A stretch of 44,896 nucleotides of DNA from a virus. Within the stretch, counting starts at the first letter, position 1, and each line of letters opens with the position of its first letter. The position numbers and the translations under genes are program-made. The stretch covers positions 1 through 44,896 of IMG/VR virus record IMGVR_UViG_3300010412_000034; one strand, 5' to 3'. The notes below the pieces were generated by a model. That model had not been told where the DNA came from. It worked only from the letters and a program-made list of their open reading frames with translations, and ran no database searches. Below are positions 2,498 through 43,602 of the stretch, piece after piece.

Positions 2498-3956
2498 TAT
2501 CTGGATGCATATTGAGTGTTCCGATGACGGAACGCTCATGGAGCTTCGTGACTATTTTTCATTCAAGGTCCCCGGATATCAATTCAAACGTTCACACATG
2601 GACGGTTGGTGGGATGGAACTATCAAACTGTTCAATGCCCAGACGCAACGCCTATATGTCGGGCTTCTCCCCTATCTAAAAGAATTCTGCCAGCTTTTCA
2701 ACTACCCCTTGGAGATTGACAAGACACTCTTCACAGAAGAGGTCATGTCTCCAACGGCCGTGCGCGATTGGGTAGCAACAATCCCAATCTACAAGAAAGG
2801 CAAGCCTATCAAGCCACGCTACTATCAGATGGTGGCTGTTTACAACATGATCAACGCCAAGCGCGGTGTTTATGTTGCCCCTACTGCGGCTGGAAAATCC
2901 CTGATGATCTACCTTTTCTCATTGTGGTTCTTTCACAATGTAGGTGGGCGCGTATTGCTGGTTGTTCCGACAACGGGTCTTGTAGAACAGATGGCTTCGG
3001 ATTTTGATGAATACTCGCAGGGAACATTCAGCCACCACGTTCACAAGATTTATGCAGGTAAGATGAAAGATGCCCCTGAGAAATCGTTGTACGTTACCAC
3101 GTGGCAGTCAATCTATGACATGAAGAAAATCCCACCCGGCTACTTTGATCAGTTTGATGCTGTAATCATTGACGAATGTCACGGCGCACAAGCAAAGAGC
3201 CTAAAGGGGATTCTTGAGAACTGCAATGCGGAATTTCGCCAAGGACTGACAGGCACGATGCATGAACCAGAAGCGCATAAGTGGGTGATTGAAGGGTTGC
3301 TTGGTGAAGTGGTTGACCTCATTTCAATGCAAGAGTTGATGGAACGAGGCTGGGTGTCAAACCTCAAGATCAACTGTGTGGTATTCGACCACGACAAGGA
3401 AACGAAAGCCGAAGCGGCTGGCCTTGATTATCACGCAGAAATCAAATACCTGATTAACCACAAAAAACGCAACGCCAAAATCTTCAAAGCCATCGGCTCA
3501 GTCAAAGAGAATTCATTCGTACTCTTCGACAAAGTTGACTATGGAGAGTGGCTATATAAGACGGCTGAAAAACTCTTTCCCGATAGAAAGGTATATCTCG
3601 TTTATGGAGCAACGACTCCAGAGGAAAGAGAAACGATTAGAAAAGCCTTGGAAGGGGAAGAGGGGTCAATAGTGATTGCCTCTTATAAAGTATTCAGTAC
3701 AGGGATTTCAATTGACAACTTGCATCATATCTTTTTCGCGGAACCGGTGGGTAAATCTAAATTCAGGATTTTCCAATCGATTGGTCGAAGCTTGCGCTTA
3801 CACTCTGAAAAAGAATTTGCTTATCTATGGGACTTCGTGGACAAATTGACTAATAACAAATCCAAGTTGAATCACACCATGAGGCATTTTGTTGAACGTG
3901 TTCAACATTACAACACTCAAGGATTGCAATACAAAATCACTTCGGTCGACCTCTAA
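2472..3956 (+). CDS. uvsW: UvsW-type SF2 DNA/RNA helicase
   Basis: 494 residues (T4 UvsW 503). Walker A is APTAAGKS at residues 136-143, motif II is DECH at 234-237, motif III GLTGT at about 258-262, and motif VI QSIGRSLR is near residue 437. The N-terminal 100 residues form the UvsW DNA-binding domain (KRSHMDGWWDGTIKLF). UvsW unwinds R-loops and branched DNA and, in T4, shuts off origin-dependent replication late in infection. GCTAAATA at 2458-2465 sits just upstream of the ATG and could be a late promoter, as T4 uvsW is late, but it lies inside the preceding gene. Confidence 0.9.
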   Translation: MIKAAKIDNIWMHIECSDDGTLMELRDYFSFKVPGYQFKRSHMDGWWDGTIKLFNAQTQRLYVGLLPYLKEFCQLFNYPLEIDKTLFTEEVMSPTAVRDWVATIPIYKKGKPIKPRYYQMVAVYNMINAKRGVYVAPTAAGKSLMIYLFSLWFFHNVGGRVLLVVPTTGLVEQMASDFDEYSQGTFSHHVHKIYAGKMKDAPEKSLYVTTWQSIYDMKKIPPGYFDQFDAVIIDECHGAQAKSLKGILENCNAEFRQGLTGTMHEPEAHKWVIEGLLGEVVDLISMQELMERGWVSNLKINCVVFDHDKETKAEAAGLDYHAEIKYLINHKKRNAKIFKAIGSVKENSFVLFDKVDYGEWLYKTAEKLFPDRKVYLVYGATTPEERETIRKALEGEEGSIVIASYKVFSTGISIDNLHHIFFAEPVGKSKFRIFQSIGRSLRLHSEKEFAYLWDFVDKLTNNKSKLNHTMRHFVERVQHYNTQGLQYKITSVDL

Positions 3957-4037
3957 TGGGTATAATTCGACCCTACAAGATCACATACAATGTGATAAGA
4001 TACGACTCAAAGGCTGGCAGGACAAGGTGAGGACATT

Positions 4038-4055
4038 AAGAAAAAGCTTTTTCTT
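4038..4055. repeat. Perfect palindrome AAGAAAAAG/CTTTTTCTT
   Basis: The 18 bases are fully self-complementary with no loop, centred on an AAGCTT. Followed by a pyrimidine-rich run (TTCCTTCC), it could act as a weak terminator for uvsW or as a protein-binding site. The sequence does not decide between these. Confidence 0.5.
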
Positions 4056-4141
4056 TCCTTCCTGCTCCTCTCCGTGTGAGGCGGAGCTTATCAGGAATCG
4101 ACCCGGGATGTCAACCGGTTTTGTGAAATTAACTTCACCTA

Positions 4142-4171
4142 TTGACTAGTGGTGATAAAGTGACCTACCAT
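4142..4171 (+). promoter_or_regulatory. Promoter of gene 55 (TTGACT-N18-TACCAT)
   Basis: TTGACT at 4142-4147 and TACCAT at 4166-4171, separated by 18 bases. The predicted start is about 4178, giving a 19-base leader with a GGAG ribosome site before ATG 4197. TACCAT is the same -10 seen before the HD gene, the VWA gene and the 21.8 kb cluster. The bases after it (TCGGTAAC) recur as TCGGTTAC after the HD-gene promoter. Confidence 0.65.
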
Positions 4172-4196
4172 GTCGGTAACATAATGGACGGAGATC

Positions 4197-4754
4197 ATGT
4201 CTACAAATCACTACATCGACAAAGAAAAATTTACGGAAGAAATGCACGATCATGCCGAAGAATGTAGGGCAGCGATAGCGGCTAAGAAGCCCATGCCTCG
4301 CTGCCCTGAATCTATTGGTGAGAAGTTCTATTTGATTGCGGTGAATGTTTCCAAGAAGGGCAACTTCTACAATTACCCGTTCAAGGATGAAATGATCTCC
4401 GATGCTCTTGAGAACATGATTCGCTATCGCTACAATTACGATAAGGCGAAAGGTGCCGCATTTTCTTACTTTACCCAGTATGCCATGTACGCCTTCATTT
4501 CCCGCATTAAGACGGAGAAGAAGGAACTGACAAAGAAAGCTAGATGGGTTCAAAAAGTCGCAATTCATGAGGTTGTGCCTCATGTGTTGGGTGATCAAGA
4601 CCTTGATGATGATTTCAAGAATGAGTATGTAAACTGGTTGGTCGAATACTACGATGAAAAACTTGATGAGCATGAGCCCAAGAAGAAACGGAAAAAGCAA
4701 AAGGCCGAGCCAGTTGAGCCAGAGCCTAGAAAACCCGGGCCTCTTGGAATTTAG
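4197..4754 (+). CDS. 55: gp55-type late sigma factor
   Basis: 185 residues, exactly the T4 gp55 size. The core follows T4 gp55: a helix ending FYNYPFKDEMISDALENMI, then the segment Y-N-Y-D-K-A-K-G with AFSYFTQYAMYAFISRIKTE, corresponding to T4 [20 protein letters not shown] (sigma region 2-like). gp55 redirects host RNA polymerase to TATAAATA boxes with the sliding clamp as activator. The presence of this gene supports reading the NNTAAATA boxes in the window as late promoters. The C-terminal 30 residues are Lys/Glu/Pro rich. It is followed at once by the nuclease genes. Confidence 0.88.
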   Translation: MSTNHYIDKEKFTEEMHDHAEECRAAIAAKKPMPRCPESIGEKFYLIAVNVSKKGNFYNYPFKDEMISDALENMIRYRYNYDKAKGAAFSYFTQYAMYAFISRIKTEKKELTKKARWVQKVAIHEVVPHVLGDQDLDDDFKNEYVNWLVEYYDEKLDEHEPKKKRKKQKAEPVEPEPRKPGPLGI

Positions 4755-16643: not shown

Positions 16644-17447
16644 ATGCGAAATATTTTTCTGGCTTTGATGTTGGTGGTCGGTTCTCTTTATCTGACCGGG
16701 TGTGGTAGTGTCGAATCTGAAACGGTGGGTGTGCGAACATCTTTCACTGGTAAGGTGAACACTCAGGAAGAGGGGCAGGGTTTCTATACCGCCGTGTTCT
16801 CAAGTCTGGACAAGTTCTCCTGCAAAGAGATTACGATTGAACTTGATGACATGCGACCGAAGGCTGGCGACAACCTGACGATGCAGGACATGGATATCGA
16901 AATCTTCTACAAGGTGGCCTGTGATCAGAATGCCGAACAGTACTTGAAGTATTCGAATCGTACCGCTTATGATAGCAATGCAGGCGTGAACTATGCTGGT
17001 TATCAGCTTGTTCGATCACTTGGCCGAGAAGCGTCTTACAATGCAGTGGCAAAGTATGATAGCTTGCAGGTCCACAAGAACCGTGAAGCAATTGCCGCTG
17101 AAATTGAACGTGCTACTCAGTCCGCTCTTAATCTTGATGACCCCGGCGTATACACTGTGACGAAGGTCATCATTCGAAATGCGACCACAGACCCGTCAGT
17201 GGAGCAGTCAATTCGACTTGCCGTGCAGAAGGACAAAGAACTTGAGGCGGTGACGAAACAGGTTCAGATTCTTGAACAGCAAGCGGCAGCTAATGCGAAG
17301 TTGCAGGTGTCGTTGACCCCTGAAATTCTGACGCAACAGTACCTTGAAGTGCTTGGTGCCGCTGCCGAAGGTGGTAATCTGAAACTGGTCGATCTTGGCT
17401 GTCAGGGTGGGGCTCTGCTAGATATCCCGCTTCGTGACAACAAGTAA
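16644..17447 (+). CDS. SPFH/Band-7-like lipoprotein
   Basis: 267 residues. The N-terminus is a lipoprotein signal (MRNIFLALMLVVGSLYLTGC) with lipobox Cys20. The body looks like an SPFH (prohibitin/HflK-type) domain: VGVRTSFTGKVNTQEEGQGF, DMRPKAGDNLTMQDMDIEIF, YQLVRSLGREASYNAVAKYD, and a helical tail with EAVTKQVQILEQQAAANAK. Such proteins form cages or scaffolds on membranes and, in bacteria, modulate FtsH. A phage copy in the periplasm could alter host proteolysis or exclude other phages. That is inference. Confidence 0.7.
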   Translation: MRNIFLALMLVVGSLYLTGCGSVESETVGVRTSFTGKVNTQEEGQGFYTAVFSSLDKFSCKEITIELDDMRPKAGDNLTMQDMDIEIFYKVACDQNAEQYLKYSNRTAYDSNAGVNYAGYQLVRSLGREASYNAVAKYDSLQVHKNREAIAAEIERATQSALNLDDPGVYTVTKVIIRNATTDPSVEQSIRLAVQKDKELEAVTKQVQILEQQAAANAKLQVSLTPEILTQQYLEVLGAAAEGGNLKLVDLGCQGGALLDIPLRDNK

Positions 17448-17488: not shown

Positions 17489-17518
17489 ATGCATTTACAT
17501 TAGGGAGAAATTCGAAAA

Positions 17519-17557
17519 TCTAAATATCCTTACAACAACAATAATTGTGAGGATATC
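17519..17557 (+). promoter_or_regulatory. regA leader: late-type box inside an RBS-sequestering hairpin
   Basis: A 12-bp inverted repeat with one G-U pair, 17524-17535 (ATATCCTTACAA) and 17545-17556 (TTGTGAGGATAT), 9-base loop, ends one base before ATG 17558 and contains the GAGG ribosome site in its 3' arm. TCTAAATA (17519-17526), a late-type -10, overlaps the 5' arm, so a start near 17532 would remove most of that arm and free the ribosome site. T4 genes e, soc and the I-TevI gene use this early-off, late-on layout. Confidence 0.65.
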
Positions 17558-17953
17558 ATGAATGAAGTAGTGAATTGGTCATTGGATGATGCTGTTGAAA
17601 TTGCTCTACCCGACAACGATTCTTTTCTAAAAATCAAAGAAACCCTTCAAAGAATCGGCATCGCCAGCTACAAGAAAAAGACGCTTTACCAGACTGCCCA
17701 TATTTTACACAAGAGAGGCAAGTATTATATAATCCATTTCAAGTGCCTATTTGCGCTTGATGGTAAGCCAGCTCCTTTCGATGAAGTGGATTGGGCGAGA
17801 CAAAACAGCATTGCGAAGCTGTTGCAGGATTGGGGTCTGTGTGATGTTGTTGGTGAACTTGGTTATACCGAAGATATGAGTAAGATCAAGATCATCAAAC
17901 ATTCAGACAGGCATAACTGGAATCTAGTCGCCAAGTACAATATTGGCGAATAA
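17558..17953 (+). CDS. regA: RegA translational repressor
   Basis: 131 residues (T4 RegA 122). The central block SFLKIKETLQRIGIASYKKK, LYQTAHILHKRGKYYIIHFK matches T4 RegA (FLKVKETLTRMGIANNK, LYQSCHILQKKGLYYIVHFK), and IAKLLQDWGLCDVV matches IAWLLEDWGLIEIV. The C-terminal NWNLVAKYNIGE matches the T4 ending. RegA binds start regions of early messages and blocks their translation. T4 RegA also represses itself. Its own leader here carries a strong hairpin. Confidence 0.92.
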   Translation: MNEVVNWSLDDAVEIALPDNDSFLKIKETLQRIGIASYKKKTLYQTAHILHKRGKYYIIHFKCLFALDGKPAPFDEVDWARQNSIAKLLQDWGLCDVVGELGYTEDMSKIKIIKHSDRHNWNLVAKYNIGE

Positions 17954-17980
17954 GCGAATATACTTATTTTACCCAAGTAT

Positions 17981-18009
17981 AACCAATTTCGCTTATAACT
18001 GGTTATAAT
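17981..18009 (+). promoter_or_regulatory. Palindromic AT-rich site with TATAAT before the phosphoesterase gene
   Basis: TTATAAC (17993-17999) and GTTATAA (18002-18008) form a perfect inverted repeat with a 2-base centre, and ACCAA/TTGGT flank it. TATAAT at 18004-18009 could be a -10, but I see no -35 at the right distance. ATG 18022 follows 12 bases later with no ribosome site. A repressor-binding site is possible. Confidence 0.4.
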
Positions 18010-18021
18010 TTGGTATACATT

Positions 18022-18849
18022 ATGAAAGTCAAAGTGATCAGTGATCTCCACTTGGAGATGCTTTCCGAATTCAGTGTTAGTGAACTGGGTCGCCGTGTCG
18101 GGCGCACGCCAGCGGACGTGCTTGTGCTTGCTGGAGACATTTGCCCATTGAAGAGTAAGCGTTGGAAGCCCTTTCTGGAAGAGTGTCAGAAGTCTTTTAA
18201 GCTGGTTTTGTGGGTGCCGGGTAATCATGAGTACTACGGTGGTGACTATAAACGCGACAGAATCATTCACAGACGGCGTGTTGAAGAGTGGAACGCTGAA
18301 TATATGTTCCGCTCGGATCATCCGTACCCGCCTTTGGTGTTTCTGAACAATCAGAACTATGTTTATGAGGGAGTCAACTTCATTGGTTCGACCCTTTGGA
18401 CTGATTTTGATGGTCGTCGCCCAGATGTAATGAATCATGCCGCTCGGTATATGAATGACTTTCATCGAACCAAGATGGGCGGTCGAATGATGACCCCAAA
18501 TGATCACCTAGGATTGCATGAGGTGGCGAAGCGTTACGTTTTTGCCGAAGTGCGCCGTGGTACTGCTAGGGGTGAGACTAACTTTGTCATTACCCACCAT
18601 GGGCCAAGTTGGTTGTCTGTTGCCGATAAGTTCAAGCGTGAACAGTGGTCTATTCTTCTGAATGGTGCGTTTGTAAGCGCATTGGATGAAGCCGTAATGA
18701 CACACGATATTAAATACTGGGTGCATGGTCATACACACGTTTCGTTCAATTACATGATCGAAAATACCAATGTGATTGTGAACCCGCATGGATATGGCGA
18801 AGAAAATGTTTGGGAGTTCAACCCAGACCTAATAATTGAGGTGAAATGA
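18022..18849 (+). CDS. Calcineurin-like metallophosphoesterase
   Basis: 275 residues from ATG 18022; the track-length alternative start at 18010 (TTG) adds four residues without support. All family motifs are present in order: ISDLHLEM, VLAGDICP, VPGNHEYYGGD, FVITHHGPS and WVHGHTHVSFNY. This is a single-chain phosphodiesterase/phosphatase fold distinct from gp47. Such phage enzymes are common near replication genes. The substrate (nucleotide, RNA end or other) is not predictable. Confidence 0.82.
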   Translation: MKVKVISDLHLEMLSEFSVSELGRRVGRTPADVLVLAGDICPLKSKRWKPFLEECQKSFKLVLWVPGNHEYYGGDYKRDRIIHRRRVEEWNAEYMFRSDHPYPPLVFLNNQNYVYEGVNFIGSTLWTDFDGRRPDVMNHAARYMNDFHRTKMGGRMMTPNDHLGLHEVAKRYVFAEVRRGTARGETNFVITHHGPSWLSVADKFKREQWSILLNGAFVSALDEAVMTHDIKYWVHGHTHVSFNYMIENTNVIVNPHGYGEENVWEFNPDLIIEVK

Positions 18850-18850
18850 A

Positions 18851-19165
18851 ATGAGTGATTTGCAGTTAGTACACAAGATCGTCTTTTTTGATTCGGTGGT
18901 TAAAAAGTGTATCGTCTTGGGTAAGTTTGTCGATATGGAGAACAATGCTCCAGATTCGAAGGTGGACCCCATTTCGTTTTTCATGGGTATCGTTGACAGG
19001 GATCATCCCGAAAAGGTGACTGTTGCCGATACGCTTGAAATTGCGAATAGGGGCATACCGCTTTCAGAGAGTACGTTCCACATGTTTTTCAACAAGAGGG
19101 ATTACAACGAGCATGACCTTCTTGATGATTCCGATTCTTCGGTAGCAATTCGAATCAAAGACTGA
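18851..19165 (+). CDS. Hypothetical protein before gene 43
   Basis: 104 residues, one base after the phosphoesterase stop. Reads as a small alpha/beta protein (LVHKIVFFDSVVKKCIVLGK; PISFFMGIVDRDHPEKVTVA; STFHMFFNKRDYNEHD). No family recognised. It lies 12 bases upstream of the polymerase, so its translation may be coupled to gp43 synthesis. Confidence 0.55.
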   Translation: MSDLQLVHKIVFFDSVVKKCIVLGKFVDMENNAPDSKVDPISFFMGIVDRDHPEKVTVADTLEIANRGIPLSESTFHMFFNKRDYNEHDLLDDSDSSVAIRIKD

Positions 19166-19177
19166 TATACTGGACGC

Positions 19178-21745
19178 ATGACTTTTTACACCAATGTTGA
19201 ATCGTTCGGTGACAAGATTCTCCTGCGAGAATTTGACACCACTCTGAATCGCACTCGCAAGAGAAGGGTTGATTTCAATCCTTCTCTTTTCATGCCTTCT
19301 GCTGACCCGACTGGTTGGAAGACCATCGGTGGCGATCATTTGAAGCGTGTTGAGTTTAACGGGGTCAAAGACTACTGGGACTTCCGTAAGCGTTACCGCG
19401 ACATGGAAAAACCCATGTGGGGTGACATTTCTCCCATTGTTCAGTTTATCTCCGAAACCTACACTGAACTTGAGCCAGATATCAGCAAGGTCAGAATCTT
19501 CAATATCGACATTGAGGTTGACCATGGCGATGAATTCCCCGACCCTGAGAAAGCCGACAGGGAGGTGACTTCGATTGCCATGTATGACAACCAGACAAAT
19601 ACAATGTTGATCTGGGCCCTTGAGTTTGAGGGTTGCATGGGTTGGCATCCTGAGAGATTCGAAGAGGGTGACTGGAACGAGATTCGCCCATACCTTTTTC
19701 AGTATGAGGGGTTCGATGATGAAGGCGATATGCTTGAGTCATTCCTGCAATACTGGGAGAAGAATTACCCAGATATCATTACTGGCTGGTTCACAGAAGG
19801 CTTTGACATTCCGTACATTGTCAATCGATTGAACCGTGTGCTTGGTGAAGACACGGCCAATCGTTTGTCGCCGTGGAAGATGGTGCGTGAGCAACAGCAA
19901 GCGTTTGGTAATCAGGCGTCTTCTGCTGGGTATCGCTCAACCTACAAAATTGTTGGTGTTGCACATCTTGACTACATGAAGGCGTACAAGAAGTATTCCT
20001 ATACCCCGCAAGAGTCATATAAACTTGACCATATCGCCTATTCAGAATTGGGCGACCGAAAGCTTTCATATGATGAGGCGCAGAACCTACCTGCTCTGTA
20101 TCGAACCAATTTCCAGAAGTTCATCGATTACAACATCAAAGACGTTGACATTGTTCAGCGACTTGATGACAAGCGTGGTTTCCTGCGCCTGATCATTTCG
20201 ATGGCCTACTATTCAAAGATCAATTTTGATGACGTTGCCTCGCCCATTCGTATTTGGGATGCGCTGATCTATAACTACTTAAAGCCGATGGGCATTCAGA
20301 TCGAACCTGAGTCAAAGGCGCATAAGAGTGAAAAGTATGAAGGCGCGTATGTCAAAACACCTGTTTCTGGTCGCTATCATTGGGTGGTTTCTGTTGACCT
20401 TGCCTCAGAATATCCTTCGCTTATGCGTGGCATCAATATCAGCCCTGATCGGTTTGTTGGTGAGACACATAGACAAGTATCGGTCGATGCGTTCCTAAAC
20501 AAAGAGATTGATAACTCTGAGTTGTATGAACGTGACCTTGCGATTGCCGCAAATGGCACGATGTTTGACAGGCGATCACCCGGCTTTATGTCTGTCTTGT
20601 TGACCGACCTGTTCAATGGTCGCAAGGCTGATAAGAGGGCAATGCTTCGATCACAAGAATTGGCCGAAGCCGCCGAAACAAAGTCCGAGAAAGAGAAGCA
20701 CAAACACGATGCTGGGTTGCATCATACCAATCAGTACTCAAAGAAGGTGTTGCTGAATAGTGCCTATGGTGCGCTTGGTAACGAATATTTCAGGTGGTTC
20801 GATGTTCGATTGGCCGAGGCCGTAACGCATTCTGGTCAGTTGGCTATTCGTTGGGCTGAGAAGGCTGTTAATACGTATTTCAACGAAGTCCTAGGCACAA
20901 AAGAAGAAGACTACGTTATTTACATCGATACCGACTCCGTGTATGTCAACGCCGAGCCTATCGTTCAGAAGTTCATGCCGGGTGTCACCGACAAGACAAA
21001 GATCGTTGACAAGCTGGACCTTTTCTTTGAGAAGAAAGTCAAGGTGGCGATCAGCAATGCCTATGACGACCTGTACAAATACATGAACCACCGTGAGCAA
21101 TTGATGTTCATGGATCGTGAGGTCATTGCAGATTCGGCGGTGTTCTGTGCCAAGAAGCATTACTTCATGCGTGTACATGACTCGGAGGGTATTCGCTATG
21201 CAACCCCGAAGATCAAGATCATGGGCATGGGGTTCATCAAATCGAACATCCCTGAGTTTTGCCGAAACAAGTGTAAAGAAATGGTGCCAATTGCACTTGA
21301 AGGTACCAATGCTGAATTCGTGGCCGAAATCGACAAGTTCAGGCAAGAGTTCGAAGCCGCGCCTCTTGAGGACATTGCTTGTGTTGTGGGTGTGTCAAAC
21401 ATTCGCAAGCACATGACCCGCGATGGCTACGCAAAGGGTACGCCAATTGGTTCAAAATCTGCAATCATTTACAATCGCCTGCACAAAGAGCATGACCTAG
21501 GTTCGAAGTATGAATTGGCTCTTGAGGGTGGTAAAATCAAGTACGTCTTTCTGAACAAGGCGAATCCGCTACGTGAAGAAACGGTTGGTTTTATCGACTT
21601 TCTGCCGCCTGAATTTAATCTCCACGCGCATGTGGACAGGCGTGAGCAATTCGAAAAGACCTTCATGTCGCCTCTGAATGAAATTCTGACGGCCCTGAAT
21701 TGGGACCGCAAGATTGTCTCTAATCTATTCGGGTTTTTTGGGTAA
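19178..21745 (+). CDS. 43: DNA polymerase gp43 (family B)
   Basis: 855 residues (T4 gp43 898). Exo I is FNIDIEVD with D111 and E113 (T4 D112/E114). Polymerase motif A is DLASEYPSLM with D407. Motif B is KKVLLNSAYGALGNEYF, and motif C YIDTDSVYV with D584/D586. The C-terminus FGFFG is a clamp-binding type tail. Motif A has Glu411 where T4 has Leu412, an unusual residue next to the steric-gate Tyr. The gene lies downstream of regA as in T4. The stop overlaps a small hairpin that begins the third promoter module. Confidence 0.95.
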   Translation: MTFYTNVESFGDKILLREFDTTLNRTRKRRVDFNPSLFMPSADPTGWKTIGGDHLKRVEFNGVKDYWDFRKRYRDMEKPMWGDISPIVQFISETYTELEPDISKVRIFNIDIEVDHGDEFPDPEKADREVTSIAMYDNQTNTMLIWALEFEGCMGWHPERFEEGDWNEIRPYLFQYEGFDDEGDMLESFLQYWEKNYPDIITGWFTEGFDIPYIVNRLNRVLGEDTANRLSPWKMVREQQQAFGNQASSAGYRSTYKIVGVAHLDYMKAYKKYSYTPQESYKLDHIAYSELGDRKLSYDEAQNLPALYRTNFQKFIDYNIKDVDIVQRLDDKRGFLRLIISMAYYSKINFDDVASPIRIWDALIYNYLKPMGIQIEPESKAHKSEKYEGAYVKTPVSGRYHWVVSVDLASEYPSLMRGINISPDRFVGETHRQVSVDAFLNKEIDNSELYERDLAIAANGTMFDRRSPGFMSVLLTDLFNGRKADKRAMLRSQELAEAAETKSEKEKHKHDAGLHHTNQYSKKVLLNSAYGALGNEYFRWFDVRLAEAVTHSGQLAIRWAEKAVNTYFNEVLGTKEEDYVIYIDTDSVYVNAEPIVQKFMPGVTDKTKIVDKLDLFFEKKVKVAISNAYDDLYKYMNHREQLMFMDREVIADSAVFCAKKHYFMRVHDSEGIRYATPKIKIMGMGFIKSNIPEFCRNKCKEMVPIALEGTNAEFVAEIDKFRQEFEAAPLEDIACVVGVSNIRKHMTRDGYAKGTPIGSKSAIIYNRLHKEHDLGSKYELALEGGKIKYVFLNKANPLREETVGFIDFLPPEFNLHAHVDRREQFEKTFMSPLNEILTALNWDRKIVSNLFGFFG

Positions 21746-31342: not shown

Positions 31343-31746
31343 AGCCGTTCACTGCCTTTTTAAGAGAGGCGGCCGCTATCAAGTTGAGTAGCAGTCCATT
31401 TGCCGCGACAACTGACGATTATATCAAACGCTTGAGGCAGAAGTACCCGGCTGCTAGGGATGGTATGCGTATCGCAGGCGCGTATGTTAGCCTTACGGCA
31501 TTTGCTGGTACTGTTGTGATCAATGAGATTTCATTGCCACATTCAGCACAGGGAAAAGGCACCGGGCATAAAGCGATGAAGGTGCTGACAGACCTTGCCG
31601 ATGAAATGGGTGTTAAGTTACAGCTATTTGCTAAACCAATTGATCAAGGTCCAGACAGAGACATGATTTCAAAATCTAAGCTGACTGCCTTTTACAAGAA
31701 ACATGGCTTTGTTGGTGCAGGTCGCATGATAAGAGAACCAAAATGA
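31339..31746 (+). CDS. Capsid-targeted GNAT acetyltransferase
   Basis: 135 residues, ATGA overlap. MKPFTAFLREAA is a capsid-targeting type N-terminus with a predicted cut after Glu10. The rest has the GNAT fold outline: VVINEISLPHSAQGKGTGHK carries the acetyl-CoA binding R/Q-x-x-G-x-G/A motif as Q-G-K-G-T-G, followed by the helix AMKVLTDLADEMGVKLQLFA and a final KLTAFYKKHGF. It would acetylate a small molecule or host protein on entry, if packaged. Target unknown. Confidence 0.65.
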   Translation: MKPFTAFLREAAAIKLSSSPFAATTDDYIKRLRQKYPAARDGMRIAGAYVSLTAFAGTVVINEISLPHSAQGKGTGHKAMKVLTDLADEMGVKLQLFAKPIDQGPDRDMISKSKLTAFYKKHGFVGAGRMIREPK

Positions 31747-32165
31747 GAGCATTACTCCTAACATTACTACTTTTTGCATCATCGGTATTTGCCGACATGG
31801 CGACCGTTGTTGCTATACGTGGTGATGTTTACGTTGACGACCAGATGCTATTGCAGGGTGAGCCTATTGCAGTAGGGTCAACGATCAAGACTGGTCCGCG
31901 AAGCTTCGTTGTGCTTCATTTTGAAGACGGTGCAAAGATTACAATCAGACCATCATCAACGGTCACGATTGAGAAGTATGACTACCTTGCATCAAATGAA
32001 GCCGAGATTAGCCTTGTACAAGGCGGGCTTCGAATCATAACGGGTGCCATGGCTAAGACCGACCCAGAAAATTACAAAGTACGCACTCCCGTTGCATTGA
32101 TGGGTGTTCGCGGAACAGAATTCTCAGTAATGTTAATGGACGAGAACTATGAAGACATTCAATAA
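31743..32165 (+). CDS. Secreted FecR-domain protein
   Basis: 140 residues. Signal peptide MRALLLTLLLFASSVFA with cleavage after Ala17. The mature part follows the FecR domain: VVAIRGDVYVDDQMLLQGEP, AVGSTIKTGPRSFVVLHFED, GAKITIRPSSTVTIEKYDY and VRTPVALMGVRGTEFSV. FecR domains are periplasmic beta structures that relay or bind envelope signals. No FecI-type sigma or receptor is seen nearby. A phage-encoded free FecR domain may modulate the host envelope, which is inference. Overlaps the next gene by 17 bases. Confidence 0.75.
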   Translation: MRALLLTLLLFASSVFADMATVVAIRGDVYVDDQMLLQGEPIAVGSTIKTGPRSFVVLHFEDGAKITIRPSSTVTIEKYDYLASNEAEISLVQGGLRIITGAMAKTDPENYKVRTPVALMGVRGTEFSVMLMDENYEDIQ

Positions 32166-34497: not shown

Positions 34498-37488
34498 TTA
34501 TCGCCTTCCTGCTCCCGGTAGGGGCTGTCTTGGTGGGTTCTTTGAGTAATGATCTGCAAAGCCCTTAATGTCACTGTATACCTTTTCCAGAATGATGTTA
34601 TCGTAGAAACGATGAATCAAGCTTGACAGAACCATTGCTGGTTTATCGGATACGTTCATCCTATATGTACCACGGCTTGGCTTGCTCAGAAAACTATAAA
34701 TTGCAACCTTTTCGTTGTTTGCATCTTGTTCGATTGCAATTGAGAACGTTTCTTTCTTGGCCAAGCTTGTAGCACCCGTCCACTCAAGTTCGAAATCAAC
34801 CGCAGTGTGTGAACCAATTGGATCGGCTGGGTCTGAAATTCGAACATCGGTGATTCTCACTGATTTGATATGAGAGCCGGGATTAGGGATATTCTTGAAA
34901 CGTGACTTCTTCATCTTCTGGATTTCTTTCACAGCCATTTGGCCAAATTTGAACGCATCCATACCTAGAAGTGATTTAAGAGCCTGCCAGTCTTCTCGAC
35001 CTTCATTCACAGACTCAAACTTGGCCATTGCTTTTTTGATATCCTCAAAGTCCAGATTCGAAAGAGCCTTCAAGTTAAGCACCTTCATGATATCTTCTGG
35101 CTTAACATCTGTTGAATCGACCTTCTTGAACTTTTTCAACATTGTCACAGCCGCTTTCTTGGCATCGATCTTTGCAATTTTGCCGTCTTTGGTTGTGCTG
35201 TTGCGAAAATACTTGTATTCGTCAAGTTCCTGTGATTCATGCATTCTGCGGGCGAAAGTCATTTCACCTGTTGATGCATTACGCAGGATGAAGTTCTTAT
35301 TCTTGTATGACTGACCCATCCAGCTTTGCATCTTCTTGTAGAACGGGTTATCTTGTCCTAGGTAAACAGACCAACGGCCGTACTTCTTCTTGCCCTTAAT
35401 GCAGTTAGAGAACGTTGCATTATCGCAATCAAAGACAGGTGAACCCCCGAACTTGCCATCTGGTGAAATACCAACAGCTTTCGGGATTGACTTGGTGGTT
35501 GTGTCTGATGCTGGCGTTGGCGATTCTGGAGCAGGTGCCACCGCTTCATTCAACACCTTGAATTCTTCTTCCGTCATATCATCGGATTCTGACATTGCAT
35601 AGGATTTGACTCTATGCCATTTTGCAATTTCATCTTGCAATACTTTACCGATGACAGAACCAGAGAAATTCTTGACCTGCTTTTCAAGGTCGGAGATGAT
35701 CTTGTCAATTTCTTTCGCTGACTGTTCTGGGTCTTTGCGTAGCTTGTCAAGGTTGGCAATCTTCAACTTTCTAATGTCAAATTTCTCTTCTAGTTCAGAT
35801 TCAATGATGTTACCCTGAAAGTCTGTCTTCAATTTATACTTGCGAGCCATTGTTGATAGTGGTGGCATTTGACCAGTGAACGTGTGACTTGTAGCCTTAA
35901 CAAACGCACGAATGGCTTCAATGCCACGAAGCTTCATTTGCGGTTTGATTTCTTTGCCCACCTTGTTGATGCCATTCAACATCTGCAAAGCAACAGGTGC
36001 CGTGGCTGGCAACTTGTCCAGTTTCTTCATAACGGCAGTGTGCAATAGTGTGTACAGGGTTGACATTTGCACATCTTCAACATTCGGCGGTAGCTTCACA
36101 GCCTCATGTAACTGCAATTCGGAGATGTACTGCAAATTCTCTTCCGTCAATGCTTCATCAACACTATCTTTGAGAACCATGCTTGCCAGATACGACAACC
36201 ACGGCACTTTAGGTTCTGCGGCTGCAAGTGCTTTCAGTTTGCTCTTGTCAAGCCCGGAGATGAATGAACGCAGTTTCTTGAATTCTGGTGACTCTGGGTC
36301 GATCTTCTTGATCTTGCCATATGTCTTGCGAAGAGCGTTAAGCTGGTTATCATTGAATTCGTTCAGACCTTCTTTCAGGCCGCGCTCCTTCATTTCATAC
36401 TTGATATGCATGACCAGCTTCATTGGGAGTTCAGTCTTATGCTGATCTTTCAAGGCCTGTTTCAGTTCCTTATCTGTCATCAATTTGACCATTTTCAGAA
36501 CGTGGCGATCAGGCTTGAATGCGGCTTCTGTCTGTAATGCGGTCTTCTGCAACTGGGACAGCCACCCTTCATATTTGTCGATCTGAGCCTTGATGATTGG
36601 CTGAGTAAGGCCCGTTGCCCTTGCATATTGTTTCTTGAACAAGTCAATGGTTGCCTGCAATTCTTTAACGGCAAGCTTTGGGTTCGCAATTAAACGCTTC
36701 CAAAGTTTCTTCTCGCTAGATGCCATTGCATCTTTCATGCGAGTTACATCCCTACGCGCAGGCGTGCGGAGATCAAGTTCATTTAGTCCAAGGAGTGCGT
36801 TTTGCATGTCTACCTCTAAAGATTCGAATTGTTTAATCCAGTCCTTTGCTTGATTGTTATTTGGTCGCTTGTTCACCCAATTCATGATCTTAGAGTACCA
36901 CTTGTTTGTTTCTTTGGCTAGGGATTGCATGTCACCATCATTGCTGACATTCCAGAAATTGGTGCCAAACAGACCCTTTAGCTTTTTAGCCTGAGCCCTG
37001 ATTTCTTCGTGACTGTTGCGTACAACTGCGTCAGGGACAGAACGGGCGCGCATTTGGTTACGCTCAAGTGCTGTTTCCAATGAGGTATCGACAAACACCA
37101 TGGCCGTGTCATAGCCCAGTGCTTCAAGAGCCGCTTTTTGCTTTTTGATCTTGTCCATGTTGCGGGCTGTTGAATCGATTACAAGACCCAAGCGGCCGTT
37201 CAGTGCCAAGTCCATTTGTTTACCACCAAGACGCTTTGCCTTGACTCGCATTGTATCGATTAACTCTGGGTCAAGCGTACCAAGCTTGAGAGATAGACCA
37301 GCTTTCTTCAAAGCCTGTTCGAAGAATGGGTCTGAGTTGATTGGTCGCAACCCCATAGCGAATAGGCCGAGTTTCCCTGCTACTGTTGATTTGCCTGAGC
37401 CGGGCCCGCCTGCCATAAAGATTGCTTTAAAAATACCGGGGTCGTTAATACCTTCATGCAGGTTAGCAATAACTTCTTCGACCTTCAT
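34498..37488 (-). CDS. Large P-loop protein with multiple prohead-protease-like sites (possible polyprotein)
   Basis: 996 residues. MKVEEVIANLHE12/G13 is a candidate targeting peptide. A P-loop kinase-like domain follows: IFMAGGPGSGKST with Walker A at 27-35, VIDSTARN near 104 and RNQMRARSVPDAVVRN near 143, as in zeta-toxin/AAA33-type kinases. The rest is mostly helical, Lys-rich and divided by sites of the type hydrophobic-x-Glu before Gly/Ala: LKE373, LHE462, LNE648 and VNE829. These would release pieces of about 361, 89, 186, 181 and 167 residues. Residues 649-670 are a Pro/Ser/Thr linker right after one site. Role: probably an internal head protein set. Confidence 0.6.
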   Translation of the reverse strand: MKVEEVIANLHEGINDPGIFKAIFMAGGPGSGKSTVAGKLGLFAMGLRPINSDPFFEQALKKAGLSLKLGTLDPELIDTMRVKAKRLGGKQMDLALNGRLGLVIDSTARNMDKIKKQKAALEALGYDTAMVFVDTSLETALERNQMRARSVPDAVVRNSHEEIRAQAKKLKGLFGTNFWNVSNDGDMQSLAKETNKWYSKIMNWVNKRPNNNQAKDWIKQFESLEVDMQNALLGLNELDLRTPARRDVTRMKDAMASSEKKLWKRLIANPKLAVKELQATIDLFKKQYARATGLTQPIIKAQIDKYEGWLSQLQKTALQTEAAFKPDRHVLKMVKLMTDKELKQALKDQHKTELPMKLVMHIKYEMKERGLKEGLNEFNDNQLNALRKTYGKIKKIDPESPEFKKLRSFISGLDKSKLKALAAAEPKVPWLSYLASMVLKDSVDEALTEENLQYISELQLHEAVKLPPNVEDVQMSTLYTLLHTAVMKKLDKLPATAPVALQMLNGINKVGKEIKPQMKLRGIEAIRAFVKATSHTFTGQMPPLSTMARKYKLKTDFQGNIIESELEEKFDIRKLKIANLDKLRKDPEQSAKEIDKIISDLEKQVKNFSGSVIGKVLQDEIAKWHRVKSYAMSESDDMTEEEFKVLNEAVAPAPESPTPASDTTTKSIPKAVGISPDGKFGGSPVFDCDNATFSNCIKGKKKYGRWSVYLGQDNPFYKKMQSWMGQSYKNKNFILRNASTGEMTFARRMHESQELDEYKYFRNSTTKDGKIAKIDAKKAAVTMLKKFKKVDSTDVKPEDIMKVLNLKALSNLDFEDIKKAMAKFESVNEGREDWQALKSLLGMDAFKFGQMAVKEIQKMKKSRFKNIPNPGSHIKSVRITDVRISDPADPIGSHTAVDFELEWTGATSLAKKETFSIAIEQDANNEKVAIYSFLSKPSRGTYRMNVSDKPAMVLSSLIHRFYDNIILEKVYSDIKGFADHYSKNPPRQPLPGAGRR

Positions 37489-38410: not shown

Positions 38411-39433
38411 GTGTTAGACGAACAATATATCAAGATACTTGGTACGCGACTGGAAAGGTTCAGACCAATAGGTCAGCACAAGTACCAGTGTCGTTGCCCC
38501 GTATGCGGTGACTCAAAGAAGGACCGCAAGAAGTCTCGTGGCAACTTCTATATGTACAAGGGTACGTGGTTGTACAAATGCCACAACTGCGGTTATTCGG
38601 CTCGCATCCCGACAATGCTTGAGCGTATTGCACCTGATCTGTACGAAGAGTACATTATGGGTAAGACCCGTGAAAGGATGACCCAGTGGGTTGAATCTTC
38701 GACACAATCCCCGAAAAATGATACAACGCAATCCCCGAAAAAAAGTACGCCCAGTGTAGAGATTGACTTACCGAAACTTTCTGAGTTACCAGAGGATCAT
38801 CCTGCTGTAAGTTACGCCCGTGGTCGAAAGCTTCCAGCTAAATACTTCCACGATTTGTATTACACGGAGCAATTCAAGAAGTGGTCTATTTCAATTGTTC
38901 CGGGCGCATTCAGCGACCAAAGTCTAAAATTTGATGATGCAAGAATTGTAATCCCGTTCCGTGATGCAAATGGTAAACTGTTCGCTTTTCAGGGGAGAGC
39001 CCTTGATAAGTGCAAGTTAAAATATTTGACCGTTAAACTTGATCAGGACAAACAAAAAATCTATGGACTAAATCACTTGAAAAACACCGCCGATCCCGTA
39101 CTGGTGGTGGAAGGGCCCCTTGACTCTATGTTTCTTGAGAACAGCGTGGGCACGGCCGACTCCAGTCTTGAGTCACTAAAAGAAATGTTTTCACATCCCG
39201 TCTTCATTTGGGATAATGAACCAAGATCAGAGCAAATTGTGAAAAAGATGGAGAAGGCAATCAATGCGGGTGAATCAGTTGTTATCTGGAAAAGAACGAA
39301 CATGTTCAACGATATCAACGATGCAATACAGAATTTTGGATTTACCATAGAGAAGATAAACGAACTGGTCAAGCGCCGAACCTTTAGTGGTTTGGAAGCA
39401 TTACTAGAATTTAACAATTGGAGAAAAGTGTAG
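38411..39433 (+). CDS. 61: DNA primase gp61
   Basis: 340 residues from GTG 38411 (T4 gp61 342). Zinc ribbon CPVCGDSKKDRKKSRGNFY with C29/C32 and CHNCGYSA with C57/C60, then LPEDHPAVSYARGRKLP, FQGRALDKCKLKYLTVK, the toprim acidic motif VVEGPLDSMFLEN and WDNEPRSEQIVKK, all paralleling T4 gp61. Makes primers with gp41. The ribosome site is weak. The stop overlaps the GTG of the reductase gene (TAGTG). Confidence 0.9.
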   Translation: MLDEQYIKILGTRLERFRPIGQHKYQCRCPVCGDSKKDRKKSRGNFYMYKGTWLYKCHNCGYSARIPTMLERIAPDLYEEYIMGKTRERMTQWVESSTQSPKNDTTQSPKKSTPSVEIDLPKLSELPEDHPAVSYARGRKLPAKYFHDLYYTEQFKKWSISIVPGAFSDQSLKFDDARIVIPFRDANGKLFAFQGRALDKCKLKYLTVKLDQDKQKIYGLNHLKNTADPVLVVEGPLDSMFLENSVGTADSSLESLKEMFSHPVFIWDNEPRSEQIVKKMEKAINAGESVVIWKRTNMFNDINDAIQNFGFTIEKINELVKRRTFSGLEALLEFNNWRKV

Positions 39434-40029
39434 TGGACCAGTACCAAAAATATATTCATGCTTCACGATACGCCCGATTCCTCCCCGAAGAGAATAGGCG
39501 AGAAACGTGGGATGAAACCGTTGACAGATACATCGGCTATTTCAAAGACCGAAACCCAGATAGAGACATTCCTTGGCAAGACTTGAGGGATGCAATTTAC
39601 AACCTAGAAGTCATGCCGTCAATGCGCGCCTTGATGACGGCTGGTAAGGCTCTCGACCGAGATAATGTGGCAGGGTATAACTGTGCGTATGTTGCAGTTG
39701 ATGACCCAAAGGTGTTTTCTGAAATCCTATTCATTCTTATGTGTGGTACTGGCGTAGGTTTCTCAGTTGAACGTCAATTCATCAACTCATTGCCAGAAGT
39801 GCCTGATGAAATTCACCCGACAGACACGACCATTGTAGTCCGAGATTCGAAACTCGGCTGGGCCGTGGCATATCGTCAACTGATCGCCATGCTTTACTCT
39901 GGGTCGCTTCCCAAGTGGGATTTGTCCAAGGTGCGAGCCGCTGGCGAGAGATTGAAAACATTCGGAGGTCGTTCATCTGGTCCGGGGCCACTTGACGACC
40001 TTTTTAGGTTCACCGTCAAGAAATTGTAA
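39433..40029 (+). CDS. nrdJ: Class II ribonucleotide reductase, N-terminal part (frameshifted)
   Basis: 198 residues from GTG 39433 with GGAG upstream. It begins like adenosylcobalamin-dependent ribonucleoside-triphosphate reductases (RTPR type): YARFLPEENRRETWDETVDR, LEVMPSMRALMTAGKALDRD, NVAGYNCAYVAVDD (first redox Cys), FILMCGTGVGFSVER and GERLKTFGGRSSGPGPLDDL. It stops at TAA 40027-40029 just after FRFTVKKL, where family members continue. The rest of the enzyme is in the +1 frame downstream. Either a disrupted gene or a sequence error. Confidence 0.8.
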   Translation: MDQYQKYIHASRYARFLPEENRRETWDETVDRYIGYFKDRNPDRDIPWQDLRDAIYNLEVMPSMRALMTAGKALDRDNVAGYNCAYVAVDDPKVFSEILFILMCGTGVGFSVERQFINSLPEVPDEIHPTDTTIVVRDSKLGWAVAYRQLIAMLYSGSLPKWDLSKVRAAGERLKTFGGRSSGPGPLDDLFRFTVKKL

Positions 40030-41278
40030 GCTGAATTCGATTGAATGTCATGATATCGTCTGCAAGATCGCGGATATCGTTGTTTGTGGTGGTGTTAGAC
40101 GTTCTGCCTTGCTGTCACTTTCGAACCTGACAGATGAGCGTATGCAACGTGCTAAGGTTGGTAATTTCTGGGACCTTGAGCCTCAGCGCCAACTTGCGAA
40201 CATTTCCGTGTGCTACACCGAGCCACCTGACATGGGTATCTTCATGCGCGAATGGGCGACCCTACATGAGTCCGGTACGGGTGAGCGTGGTATCTTCAAT
40301 CGTGTCGCCGCGCAAAAGCTGTGCCCGGAGCGCCGAGATAATACACACGCATTCGGCACTAACCCATGCTCGGAGATCGTCCTGAGGTCCAAGCAATTCT
40401 GCAATCTTACAGAGGTGGTTATTCGCAACGGTGACACCAAAGAACGTCTGAAAGAGAAAGTGCGCCTAGCGACCATTCTTGGTACTCTGCAAGCTACTCT
40501 GACAGACTTCCGCTTTTTGTCGGCTGCGTGGAAGAATAATACCGAAGAAGAGCGTTTGCTTGGTGTATCACTGACGGGCATCATGGATCACAAGACGTTG
40601 AGCCGTTCCGACGATCTGGCCGCAAGCTGGTATCGTGAACTGAAAGAAGCGGCTGTAGAATGCAACCAAAAGTATGCAGCAATTCTCGGAATACCTGAAT
40701 CAGCGGCGATTACATGTACCAAGCCATCTGGGACAGTTTCACAATTGGTGAATTCTGCTTCTGGTATTCACCCACGTTATTCTGAGTTCTACATTCGCAC
40801 CGTGCGCCAAGACAAGAAGGATTCTCTTGCACAGTGGATGGTTGATCATGGGTTCCCGGTTGAAGATGATTTGTTCAATCCGTCGAATTACGTATTCTCA
40901 TTCCCACAGAAAGGCCCACATGATGCCGTGTTTCGAAATCAAATGTCGGCCATTGAACAGCTTGAACACTGGAAGGTCGTTGCTCTAAACTGGTGTGAAC
41001 ATAAGCCGTCGATCACCGTGTATGTGCGCGACCATGAATGGCTTGAAGTGGGTGCTTGGGTCTACAAGAATTTCAACATTCTGAGTGGTGTTTCGTTCCT
41101 ACCGTATTCGGGAGGTATATACAAGCAAGCACCTTATCAGGAATGCGATGAGGCAAAGTACGAAGAGTTCAAGAAACTACTCCCAGAAGTAGATTTCAGC
41201 GACTTTAAAGAGTATGAAGATAACACCACCGGTACGCAGGAGTACGCCTGTGTTGCTGGAGTATGTGAACTGCCATAA
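39992..41278 (+). CDS. nrdJ: Class II ribonucleotide reductase, C-terminal part
   Basis: The conserved sequence resumes at CKLNSIECHDIVCKIADIVV, GGVRRSALLSLSNL, so the true junction is near 40022-40031; residues read from TTG 39992 to there are not conserved. All later catalytic parts are intact: FGTNPCSEIVLRSKQFCNL with the radical Cys and its partner, KPSGTVSQLVNSASGIHPRY, and the C-terminal redox pair CVAGVC. Class II enzymes use cobalamin and work with or without oxygen. About 6 residues normally between FTV..L and G-R-K-L-N-S appear to be missing. Confidence 0.8.
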   Translation: MTTFLGSPSRNCKLNSIECHDIVCKIADIVVCGGVRRSALLSLSNLTDERMQRAKVGNFWDLEPQRQLANISVCYTEPPDMGIFMREWATLHESGTGERGIFNRVAAQKLCPERRDNTHAFGTNPCSEIVLRSKQFCNLTEVVIRNGDTKERLKEKVRLATILGTLQATLTDFRFLSAAWKNNTEEERLLGVSLTGIMDHKTLSRSDDLAASWYRELKEAAVECNQKYAAILGIPESAAITCTKPSGTVSQLVNSASGIHPRYSEFYIRTVRQDKKDSLAQWMVDHGFPVEDDLFNPSNYVFSFPQKGPHDAVFRNQMSAIEQLEHWKVVALNWCEHKPSITVYVRDHEWLEVGAWVYKNFNILSGVSFLPYSGGIYKQAPYQECDEAKYEEFKKLLPEVDFSDFKEYEDNTTGTQEYACVAGVCELP

Positions 41279-41292
41279 CTGAGTTATTCGCT

Positions 41293-41901
41293 ATGAACAA
41301 GCTATACCTGCACCCGCTGCCAGTTAGGATGTGGCACTGGTTGAATGCACTTTGTTTTGTGTTGTTGATCCTTACGGGTCTTGATTTGAACTACAAGTTA
41401 TTCGGTATCAGTAGAGTACCGCATGAGTGGATTGGGTTAACATTGACGGCCAACTATATTTTCTGGTTGGCCTATCATCTGTATTCTGATCAGATTAGCG
41501 TCTATCAGCCAAGCCTGAATGTCAAAGACTATCTGACAAGAGCATGGTTGCAGGTGCGCTACTATTCTTACGGAATCTTTAAGAAAGAGCGCAACCCACA
41601 CCAGTCAAGATACAGGGCGAAGTTTAATCCTTTGCAACAGATTTTGTACCCTATTATCATGCTGGTGCTTGTACCGATTCAGATCATGACAGGTCTGATA
41701 TTGTGGAACAAGCCGTACTTTATGGATTGGATAAAATACTTTGGTTACAAGACAATTGTGCATACACATGAATACCTGTTTTTCTTTTTCATTGGGTTCA
41801 TCTTTATTCACATATTCTTGAGCGCACTGGGTAAGACACCAACGCAACATTTCAAAGCGATGGTGACAGGTTATGATGAGGAAGACAGATATGAGCCTTG
41901 A
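41293..41901 (+). CDS. Cytochrome b561 / FdhI-type membrane cytochrome b
   Basis: 202 residues with four hydrophobic segments (about 17-31, 46-63, 117-137, 160-177). The N-terminus HPLPVRMWHWLNALCFVLLI, LTGL and the C-terminus VHTHEYLFFFFIGFIFIHIF, GKTPTQHFKAMVTGYDEED are characteristic of the b-type cytochrome subunits of formate dehydrogenases and Ni-Fe hydrogenases. Candidate heme ligands are H15, H44 or H62, H159 and H173; the 14-residue H159-H173 spacing matches the family. It would sit in the inner membrane and pass electrons to quinone. No catalytic partner is encoded in the window. Confidence 0.8.
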   Translation: MNKLYLHPLPVRMWHWLNALCFVLLILTGLDLNYKLFGISRVPHEWIGLTLTANYIFWLAYHLYSDQISVYQPSLNVKDYLTRAWLQVRYYSYGIFKKERNPHQSRYRAKFNPLQQILYPIIMLVLVPIQIMTGLILWNKPYFMDWIKYFGYKTIVHTHEYLFFFFIGFIFIHIFLSALGKTPTQHFKAMVTGYDEEDRYEP

Positions 41902-42208
41902 AGCTATATTAGAGGATCGTTATATAAAAGTAAGAGATATACAAAAGATCAGCTTGACGCCCGATGAGGTTTTGCTGATCAAGGTTGGCATCGATGGAAT
42001 GAAGCAGGAAGATGTGAATGCAACGCTTTCAATGATCGCCAGAACATTCAGAGAAAATCTGCCGCATACGAAAATGATCATTACGACAGTGACGACCGAA
42101 AGACCGTTTGATGTATATGGTATTAACCAAGCATTTGTGATTGAGGAGAAATATGATGGAAGTGACAAAGATTCAGGAATTGATGCTGAACGTAATCAGC
42201 AACCCTAA
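41891..42208 (+). CDS. Small hypothetical protein
   Basis: 105 residues from ATG 41891, overlapping the cytochrome gene by 11 bases with GAGGAAG upstream. A beta strand-rich middle (KISLTPDEVLLIKVGIDGMK; HTKMIITTVTTERPFDVYGI) and acidic end. No family recognised. It overlaps the next gene, so this set is one operon. Confidence 0.5.
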   Translation: MSLEAILEDRYIKVRDIQKISLTPDEVLLIKVGIDGMKQEDVNATLSMIARTFRENLPHTKMIITTVTTERPFDVYGINQAFVIEEKYDGSDKDSGIDAERNQQP

Positions 42209-42446
42209 GAAGTTTGTATCAAAGAATGAAGAGACAGGTGAAGAAACCACGATCTATCGCCAACGTGCGCTAGTCGGCCTTCGTTTTGCAGAAGGTGAGC
42301 GTGATTACCAGTATCTTGTTACGTCGATGGATTTGAACGATGCTGAAAAGCTGACTGATTGGGAATTTGAAAAGTTCACCGATGGTGGCATTCCAATCTT
42401 TCAGTCTCCCGCTTATCGACAACTTGAACTAGGGGTTGTTGCATGA
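42153..42446 (+). CDS. Small hypothetical protein
   Basis: 97 residues from the double ATG at 42153, with GAGGAGAA just upstream. TIYRQRALVGLRFAEGERDY, QYLVTSMDLNDAEKLTDWEF form a compact alpha/beta outline; LMLNVISNPKKFVSK begins with a helix. No family recognised. ATGA overlap with the sulfotransferase-like gene. Confidence 0.5.
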   Translation: MMEVTKIQELMLNVISNPKKFVSKNEETGEETTIYRQRALVGLRFAEGERDYQYLVTSMDLNDAEKLTDWEFEKFTDGGIPIFQSPAYRQLELGVVA

Positions 42447-43141
42447 ACATAATGCCAGATGGCACTGGTTGGATTCTGCCTCCCCGTTGCGCGGCACGCT
42501 ACACTATGGGCGTGCTTTGGCGTTACGGTGTTCAGCATTTGACCTATCATGATATCGTGCCTGAGATTGAAGTTTCTCAGATCATCATGAACATTCGCAA
42601 TCCGTTTTCTCGTATTCGTTCATGGTTGCGTTTGTGGAACACGACCTTACCCCAGCCAATTTCAGCAAAACAATACATTGAAAACTTGCACACAGGCGAA
42701 CATGGTGTTCAATGGGTGAATATTATTGATGTTCCAAACGGCATTAAGCATCCTTGGAAGTATGTCGCACCCCTACATCAATACATCGATGTACTTGCTA
42801 GGCATGGAAAGGCTGTCAATCATTTCATTCGCCAAGAGCACCTTGAAGAAGACATGGAGGCTGCTGGTTACCCGACAATGGGGTATGATTATGACCATAC
42901 TTTGATTGAGCCGCCGACCGACGAAAAACAAATTTTGCAGTTTATGAAGAACCAGCCCGTTGCTGGTGAGATTGAAATTGGGTTCAGAGTAAGACAGCCG
43001 GGACAGAAATGGGAAGCTGGCGATGGTACTGCTGATCAAGAATTCTATGCAAAGAACCCGCATTGCGCGGATATCATTGCTACGTATTATCGTAAAGACT
43101 TTGAGACTTTCGGTTACTCTTTCAACATTTCTGATATCTGA
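42443..43141 (+). CDS. Sulfotransferase-like protein
   Basis: 232 residues. GWILPPRCAARYTMGVLWRY occupies the place of the PAPS-binding P-loop helix, followed by SQIIMNIRNPFSRIRSWLRL, typical of the R-x-P...R..S 3'-phosphate motif of sulfotransferases, and the end CADIIATYYRKDFETFGYSF, a common C-terminal helix of the family. Phage relatives are thought to modify sugars, or act in host takeover, but the acceptor is unknown. The C-terminal 28 bases overlap the convergent GIY-YIG gene. Confidence 0.6.
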   Translation: MNIMPDGTGWILPPRCAARYTMGVLWRYGVQHLTYHDIVPEIEVSQIIMNIRNPFSRIRSWLRLWNTTLPQPISAKQYIENLHTGEHGVQWVNIIDVPNGIKHPWKYVAPLHQYIDVLARHGKAVNHFIRQEHLEEDMEAAGYPTMGYDYDHTLIEPPTDEKQILQFMKNQPVAGEIEIGFRVRQPGQKWEAGDGTADQEFYAKNPHCADIIATYYRKDFETFGYSFNISDI

Positions 43142-43602
43142 GTGTATTCTTCATGCAGGTCCAAACGATCTTCCCAATGCAAAGCACTCGGGTAGTATTT
43201 GGTGAGAATGTTCCGATTGTAGAACAAACGTTCACCGTTGATATCTCGGGCTTCCAAGACATCCAACAGGAACTGGAGTTTCAATTCATGGTAATTGAGT
43301 TCAGTCCTGTTGATGTGGAAGCTGACGATTTCAAAGATGAAGTTGTCCTTGCCAAACTCTTCAATGTCCCTTTTAACGTCATCGGATGAAGAGCAGTAGG
43401 TTCTCCAATCTGATTCTTTCACCACCTTACGCCTACGTTTCTTTCCTTTTAAGGCGGGCAGGGTTCTACGTGCGTGGAAGACTTTCTTCCCCACATATCG
43501 CATACCGTTGACCTTGTTGATGATGATATAGACGAACCCAGCGTGATCAATTTCTTCATAATCCGGGTCGTATGGTTCGCCTTTGTGCGTCCAATGACTC
43601 AT
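43114..43602 (-). CDS. GIY-YIG endonuclease (Seg-like)
   Basis: 162 residues on the minus strand. GFVYIIINKVNGMRYVGKK carries the GIY...YIG pair (as FVYI/YVG), followed by ESDWRTYCSSSDDVKRDIEE, FGKDNFIFEIVSFH and NYHELKLQFLLDVL with the catalytic Glu. The layout matches free-standing phage GIY-YIG nucleases. Such genes act as homing endonucleases or DNA-degrading enzymes. GGTAAATA on the minus strand ends seven bases before its ATG, so its late message would be nearly leaderless. Confidence 0.8.
   Translation of the reverse strand: MSHWTHKGEPYDPDYEEIDHAGFVYIIINKVNGMRYVGKKVFHARRTLPALKGKKRRRKVVKESDWRTYCSSSDDVKRDIEEFGKDNFIFEIVSFHINRTELNYHELKLQFLLDVLEARDINGERLFYNRNILTKYYPSALHWEDRLDLHEEYTQISEMLKE

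Follow-up and report, generated by a model that had tools for sequence, protein, structure and literature searches.

The window analysed here, a stretch of 44,896 bases, corresponds to one IMG/VR virus record (IMGVR_UViG_3300010412_000034), and its positions 41293–41901 (+ strand) raise the question of what a cytochrome b subunit of respiratory type does in a phage. The PHROG matches obtained on the contig include a UvsW-type helicase, SbcC/SbcD (gp46/47-like), a sliding clamp and a clamp loader, as well as a family B polymerase, UvsX, a DnaB-like helicase, a primase and a late sigma factor, and make up a T4-like set of replication and late transcription genes. As the polymerase finds its best matches among cyanophage polymerases, at an identity of about 40%, the phage was assigned to a distant T4-like lineage. 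When promoters were searched along the 44,896 bases of the window, no T4 late consensus TATAAATA was found, and sigma-70-like sites occurred at chance level.

The ORF at 41293–41901 begins with ATG, has an intact frame and encodes 202 amino acids. The protein matches Pfam PF01292 (Ni_hydr_CYTB / prokaryotic cytochrome b561) along residues 7–193 (E 1.5e-24; 87.2 bits against a curated cut-off of 30.1), covering profile positions 2–179 of 179, a sequence match far beyond chance. The original prediction, made from the sequence, had proposed four membrane spans, which are borne out by the four long helices (9–34, 42–64, 113–138 and 152–177) of the AlphaFold model (pLDDT 90.7); the motifs that it quoted from this ORF are also present. 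The top PDB match of the model in Foldseek is the cytochrome b of E. coli hydrogenase-1 (HyaC), with a probability of 1.00, TM scores of 0.53/0.62, an E value of only 0.02 and 18% identity. Searching the PDB with the family profile retrieved HyaC (1e-8) and FdnI (1.8e-7), and nothing in a viral fold library matched the phage protein. Both the fold and the histidine positions can be aligned with FdnI (1kqf) and HyaC (4gd3, 6g94), the similarity being weak, but the partners of these two proteins are a molybdoenzyme or a hydrogenase and not a multihaem cytochrome c.

By homology, the haem ligands are His15, His44, His159 and His173. Loss of ligands among relatives, which had been named beforehand as evidence against the prediction, was not seen: the four histidines are invariant across the alignment of 46 sequences (the phage protein and 45 bacterial relatives), and in all of them His159 and His173 are 14 residues apart, as the predicted family spacing required. 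Of the columns invariant among the 45 bacterial relatives, 16 out of 17 are preserved in the phage protein, the exception being Y175F; of those conserved at 90% or more, 8 out of 9 are preserved, the exception being T178A. Both substitutions adjoin the last haem ligand. The identity of the protein as an intact four-helix dihaem cytochrome b is well supported, and with it the proposal of a phage-borne, quinone-linked dihaem cytochrome b that has kept its ligands.

We then considered whether the gene belongs to the phage. Only 14 bases separate it from the stop codon of the preceding ribonucleotide reductase, and it overlaps the next ORF (41873–42208, + strand; function unassigned, likely start at 41891), whose likely Shine-Dalgarno sequence, GAGGAAG, lies within the last codons of the cytochrome gene. 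As, in addition, clear phage genes flank it on either side, the locus is not an obvious assembly chimera. G+C content is continuous across it, and codon use of the gene is ordinary for the window, with no sign of recent transfer. The gene is known from one contig only; hence, of the concern that it might occur in a single assembly at a chimeric join, the first half stands and nothing marks the second. That the phage has only recently picked up the gene, as cargo without a function in a variable region, or else that the locus is an assembly chimera, appears highly improbable: the single contig, the variable spot beside an endonuclease gene and the frame split of the adjoining reductase would fit such an origin, but the frame is intact, the core is conserved although no relative found is more than 48% identical, codon use is phage-like and the gene overlaps the following ORF.

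The upstream reductase is of class II and occupies positions 39418–41278 (+ strand) as two ORFs in different frames (39418–40029 and 39992–41278), the frame being split near 40010–40030. In eleven related phage loci the reductase is a single ORF, which has about 9 residues at a place where, by comparison, about 17 bases are missing from the window; the split may reflect an error of assembly, a genuine disruption or a gene encoded in two parts. Downstream of the cytochrome gene and of the ORF that overlaps it, two cargo ORFs without family match (42141–42446 and 42443–43141, together 42141–43141, + strand) are followed by a flanking homologue of SegE-type GIY-YIG endonucleases (43114–43602, − strand; PF19835, E 2.9e-36). 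Neither the cytochrome gene nor the three ORFs downstream had a match in the related phage loci. The SegE-type homologue is present in 31 fetched viral loci, often close downstream of their ribonucleotide reductase, suggesting a spot for mobile cargo. What follows the reductase in related phages is a PstS-like binding protein, a carbamoyltransferase, glycosyltransferases, a PD-(D/E)XK nuclease or unknowns; in one related phage locus, a PstS-like phosphate-binding protein (PBP_like_2; 3342–4376) lies directly 3′ of the class II reductase. As these genes vary, the spot holds changing cargo, of which the cytochrome is one item, and its adjacency to the reductase says little about its function. 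Class II ribonucleotide reductases depend on B12 and have no formate requirement. The neighbouring enzyme for dNTP synthesis, to which the original prediction had pointed, is therefore present, but a functional tie to it does not follow from a class II enzyme in a variable site, and the link to formate is unfounded.

To which type of b subunit the protein belongs was addressed with curated NCBIfam models, and it reaches the cut-off of none of the three b-subunit models. The best match is NF011582, thiosulfate reductase cytochrome B subunit (PhsC/YdhU-type), with 131.3 bits against a cut-off of 204. TIGR02125 (NiFe-hydrogenase b subunit) scores 56.2 bits against 121.5, and TIGR01583 (formate dehydrogenase gamma subunit) 40 bits against 115.85. 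The two families originally proposed thus fall far below their cut-offs and below the thiosulfate reductase-type model as well; an affiliation with either of them was rejected on the basis of these scores and of the gene neighbourhoods of the relatives.

A scan of GTDB genomes provided 65 bacterial relatives. The best of them are 41–47% identical to the phage cytochrome, and the closest relatives found overall reach at most 48%. When c-haem motifs were counted by regular expression with permissive spacing, a protein with at least 4 motifs was adjacent or fused in 61 of the 65, which speaks against the proposed link to a host formate or hydrogen enzyme. The partners of the first seven bacterial members of the clade that holds the phage protein have 9–13 motifs, and each of 17 loci fetched from a wider sample (three of them the same genes as earlier) has a frame of 9–12 haems adjacent or fused within the stretch fetched. 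In every bacterial clade member examined, a multihaem c cytochrome abuts, overlaps or is fused to the b gene. Partners of the close relatives match the cytochrome c7, c3, NrfB-like and paired-CXXCH families, and in two relatives the locus also has HmcB/HmcC-like genes nearby, along with another multihaem gene. In a wider genome sample, at a threshold of E 1e-30, the gene was found in 43 of 296 genomes of Nitrospirota (the phylum of genome G050) and in 2 of 369 genomes from the class of genome G048; among the groups sampled it is commonest in Nitrospirota.

The phage protein falls within a clade of 8 in the smaller tree (support 100/99) and within a clade of 22 in the larger one (100/98), in the company of Nitrospirota and a few Proteobacteria. 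Phylogeny, which had been suggested as a way to find the donor, accordingly yields a well-supported clade; the phage protein sits on a long branch, of 1.17 changes per site, and the tree does not resolve its place inside that clade. These data also bear on the idea that the protein serves as the b subunit of a host molybdoenzyme or hydrogenase (formate dehydrogenase, hydrogenase or thiosulfate reductase), which we consider unlikely. Membership in the same superfamily, a thiosulfate reductase model as best NCBIfam match and the occurrence of PhsC-type relatives in Enterobacterales would agree with it, but no curated cut-off is reached, the two such PhsC-type sequences included branch far from the phage protein, outside its clade, and its close relatives neighbour multihaem c genes.

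Our main reading is that the phage protein is a b subunit of the multihaem-associated type, to which we assign a probability of roughly 0.85. The nearest known systems are CbcL, MtrH and MtoC, from Geobacter, Fe(III) reducers and Fe(II) oxidisers. They share with the bacterial relatives of the phage protein an FdnI/HydC-type dihaem b module combined with a multihaem c cytochrome; for the phage protein itself, the likeness rests on clade membership (100/98) and on the haem counts of the partners. CbcL, MtrH and MtoC usually have six TM helices and 3–23 haem motifs in one chain, whereas the phage protein has four TM helices, no c-haem domain and a shorter TM1–TM2 loop, and is found in a phage. 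No c-type haem motif (CxxCH) was detected in it or in any other called gene of the window, and it therefore fails the one-chain definition of CbcL. The window covers only 44.9 kb, so that a part of the phage genome outside it could encode a c-type partner.

The absence of a c subunit would also be expected if the protein worked alone, in the manner of the E. coli superoxide oxidase CybB, passing electrons from periplasmic superoxide to quinone and so protecting the infected cell. CybB belongs to the broad cytochrome b561 family, as does the phage cytochrome. We regard this role as very doubtful: the family profile finds HyaC and FdnI but no CybB/cytochrome b561 chain in the PDB up to E 10, and the clade of the phage protein is consistently tied to multihaem partners.

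A feature that sets the phage protein apart lies between its first two helices. His15 and His44 are separated by 29 residues, versus 33–37 in the 45 bacterial relatives, and the cause is a short TM1–TM2 loop (residues 35–42; 41395–41418, + strand). The TM2–TM3 loop contains 9 K/R and 3 D/E, and would be cytoplasmic by the positive-inside rule; the TM1–TM2 loop would then be periplasmic, as the topology of FdnI and HyaC also predicts. By analogy, this would be the face where a c-type partner should dock, and the shortened loop could, together with Y175F and T178A, mean that docking is altered or lost. A decoy that replaces the resident b subunit in a host complex and blocks or uncouples respiration, for instance as a superinfection or growth-arrest function, would likewise arrive without its partner and might have just such a uniquely short loop at the predicted docking face. 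Nevertheless, the protein has lost none of its ligands and hardly any of the invariant residues, whereas an inhibitor could do without them, and this alternative seems to us quite unlikely.

A working b subunit of the multihaem-associated type might act as follows. Two haems b, with the putative ligand pairs His15/His173 and His44/His159, would form a wire across the cytoplasmic membrane that connects a quinone site with the periplasmic face, the pairing and the sidedness being drawn by analogy with the structures mentioned above. The phage would bring the b half alone, which would most likely dock onto a multihaem c cytochrome of the host and maintain or redirect turnover of the quinone pool during infection. 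The quinone site, the use of a host partner, the direction of electron flow and the benefit to the phage are all points that we infer. CbcL, MtrH and MtoC have been proposed to act both ways between quinone and periplasmic cytochromes (PMC6295460; PMC12307469), and CbcL supports menaquinol oxidation at low potential (PMC12307469). To this full mechanism, a b subunit of a quinone:multihaem-cytochrome-c oxidoreductase of CbcL/MtrH/MtoC layout that works with a host multihaem cytochrome, we give about even odds. More tentatively, the phage subunit may be swapped in so as to take over the host multihaem-cytochrome complex, possibly one for extracellular electron transfer, and set electron flow to or from the quinone pool; we hold this to be possible, if on the unlikely side. 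The data suggest that the phage tampers with host respiration. If so, anaerobic or metal-linked respiration would be a direct target of viruses, at the step between quinone pool and multihaem cytochrome, in bacterial groups (Nitrospirota and others) from which few phages are known, and the locus would offer a testable case in which a redox complex of the host membrane receives one of its subunits from a phage.

The gene had been predicted not to be a standard phage gene, which agrees with the searches performed: the protein has no PHROG, and no other genuine viral copy was found among 50,697 phage records. No second copy appeared in four IMG/VR scans (three queried by protein or alignment, the fourth by a DNA pattern), it being understood that pattern-based scans can miss relatives. 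The suggested search in related phages gave none either, since none of the 47 related viral records, which include many fragments, has PF01292, and tblastn against the fetched related viral loci gave no match. Two candidates were set aside. The first, a 34% match in 'Escherichia phage 503046' (CP025887.1) and the one strong hit under a phage name, is phsC/ydh DNA of the E. coli chromosome, which 5381 of 5426 E. coli genomes contain; the record, titled 'Escherichia phage 503046, complete genome', holds this chromosomal stretch (ydhX/phsC/ydhT) at 17500–19500. The second, in MT836548 (23% identity, E 7e-3), is an unverified faecal scaffold. Known phage metabolic genes mostly encode soluble enzymes or parts of photosystems. 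The cytochrome resembles them in being metabolic cargo of a lytic-type phage and differs in that neither the phage collections searched nor the papers found in the open-licence literature of PubMed Central yielded a respiratory dihaem b subunit, the silence of the literature being weak evidence of novelty.

Elsewhere in the window, positions 34498–37488 (− strand) encode a 996-amino acid protein that has a zeta-toxin-like/AAA kinase domain at its N terminus and whose long tail matches no family. Two additional genes of this phage are envelope-directed: one encodes an SPFH/Band 7 lipoprotein (16644–17447; PHROG lipoprotein family), the other (31743–32165) a protein that combines a FecR domain with a signal-like N terminus.
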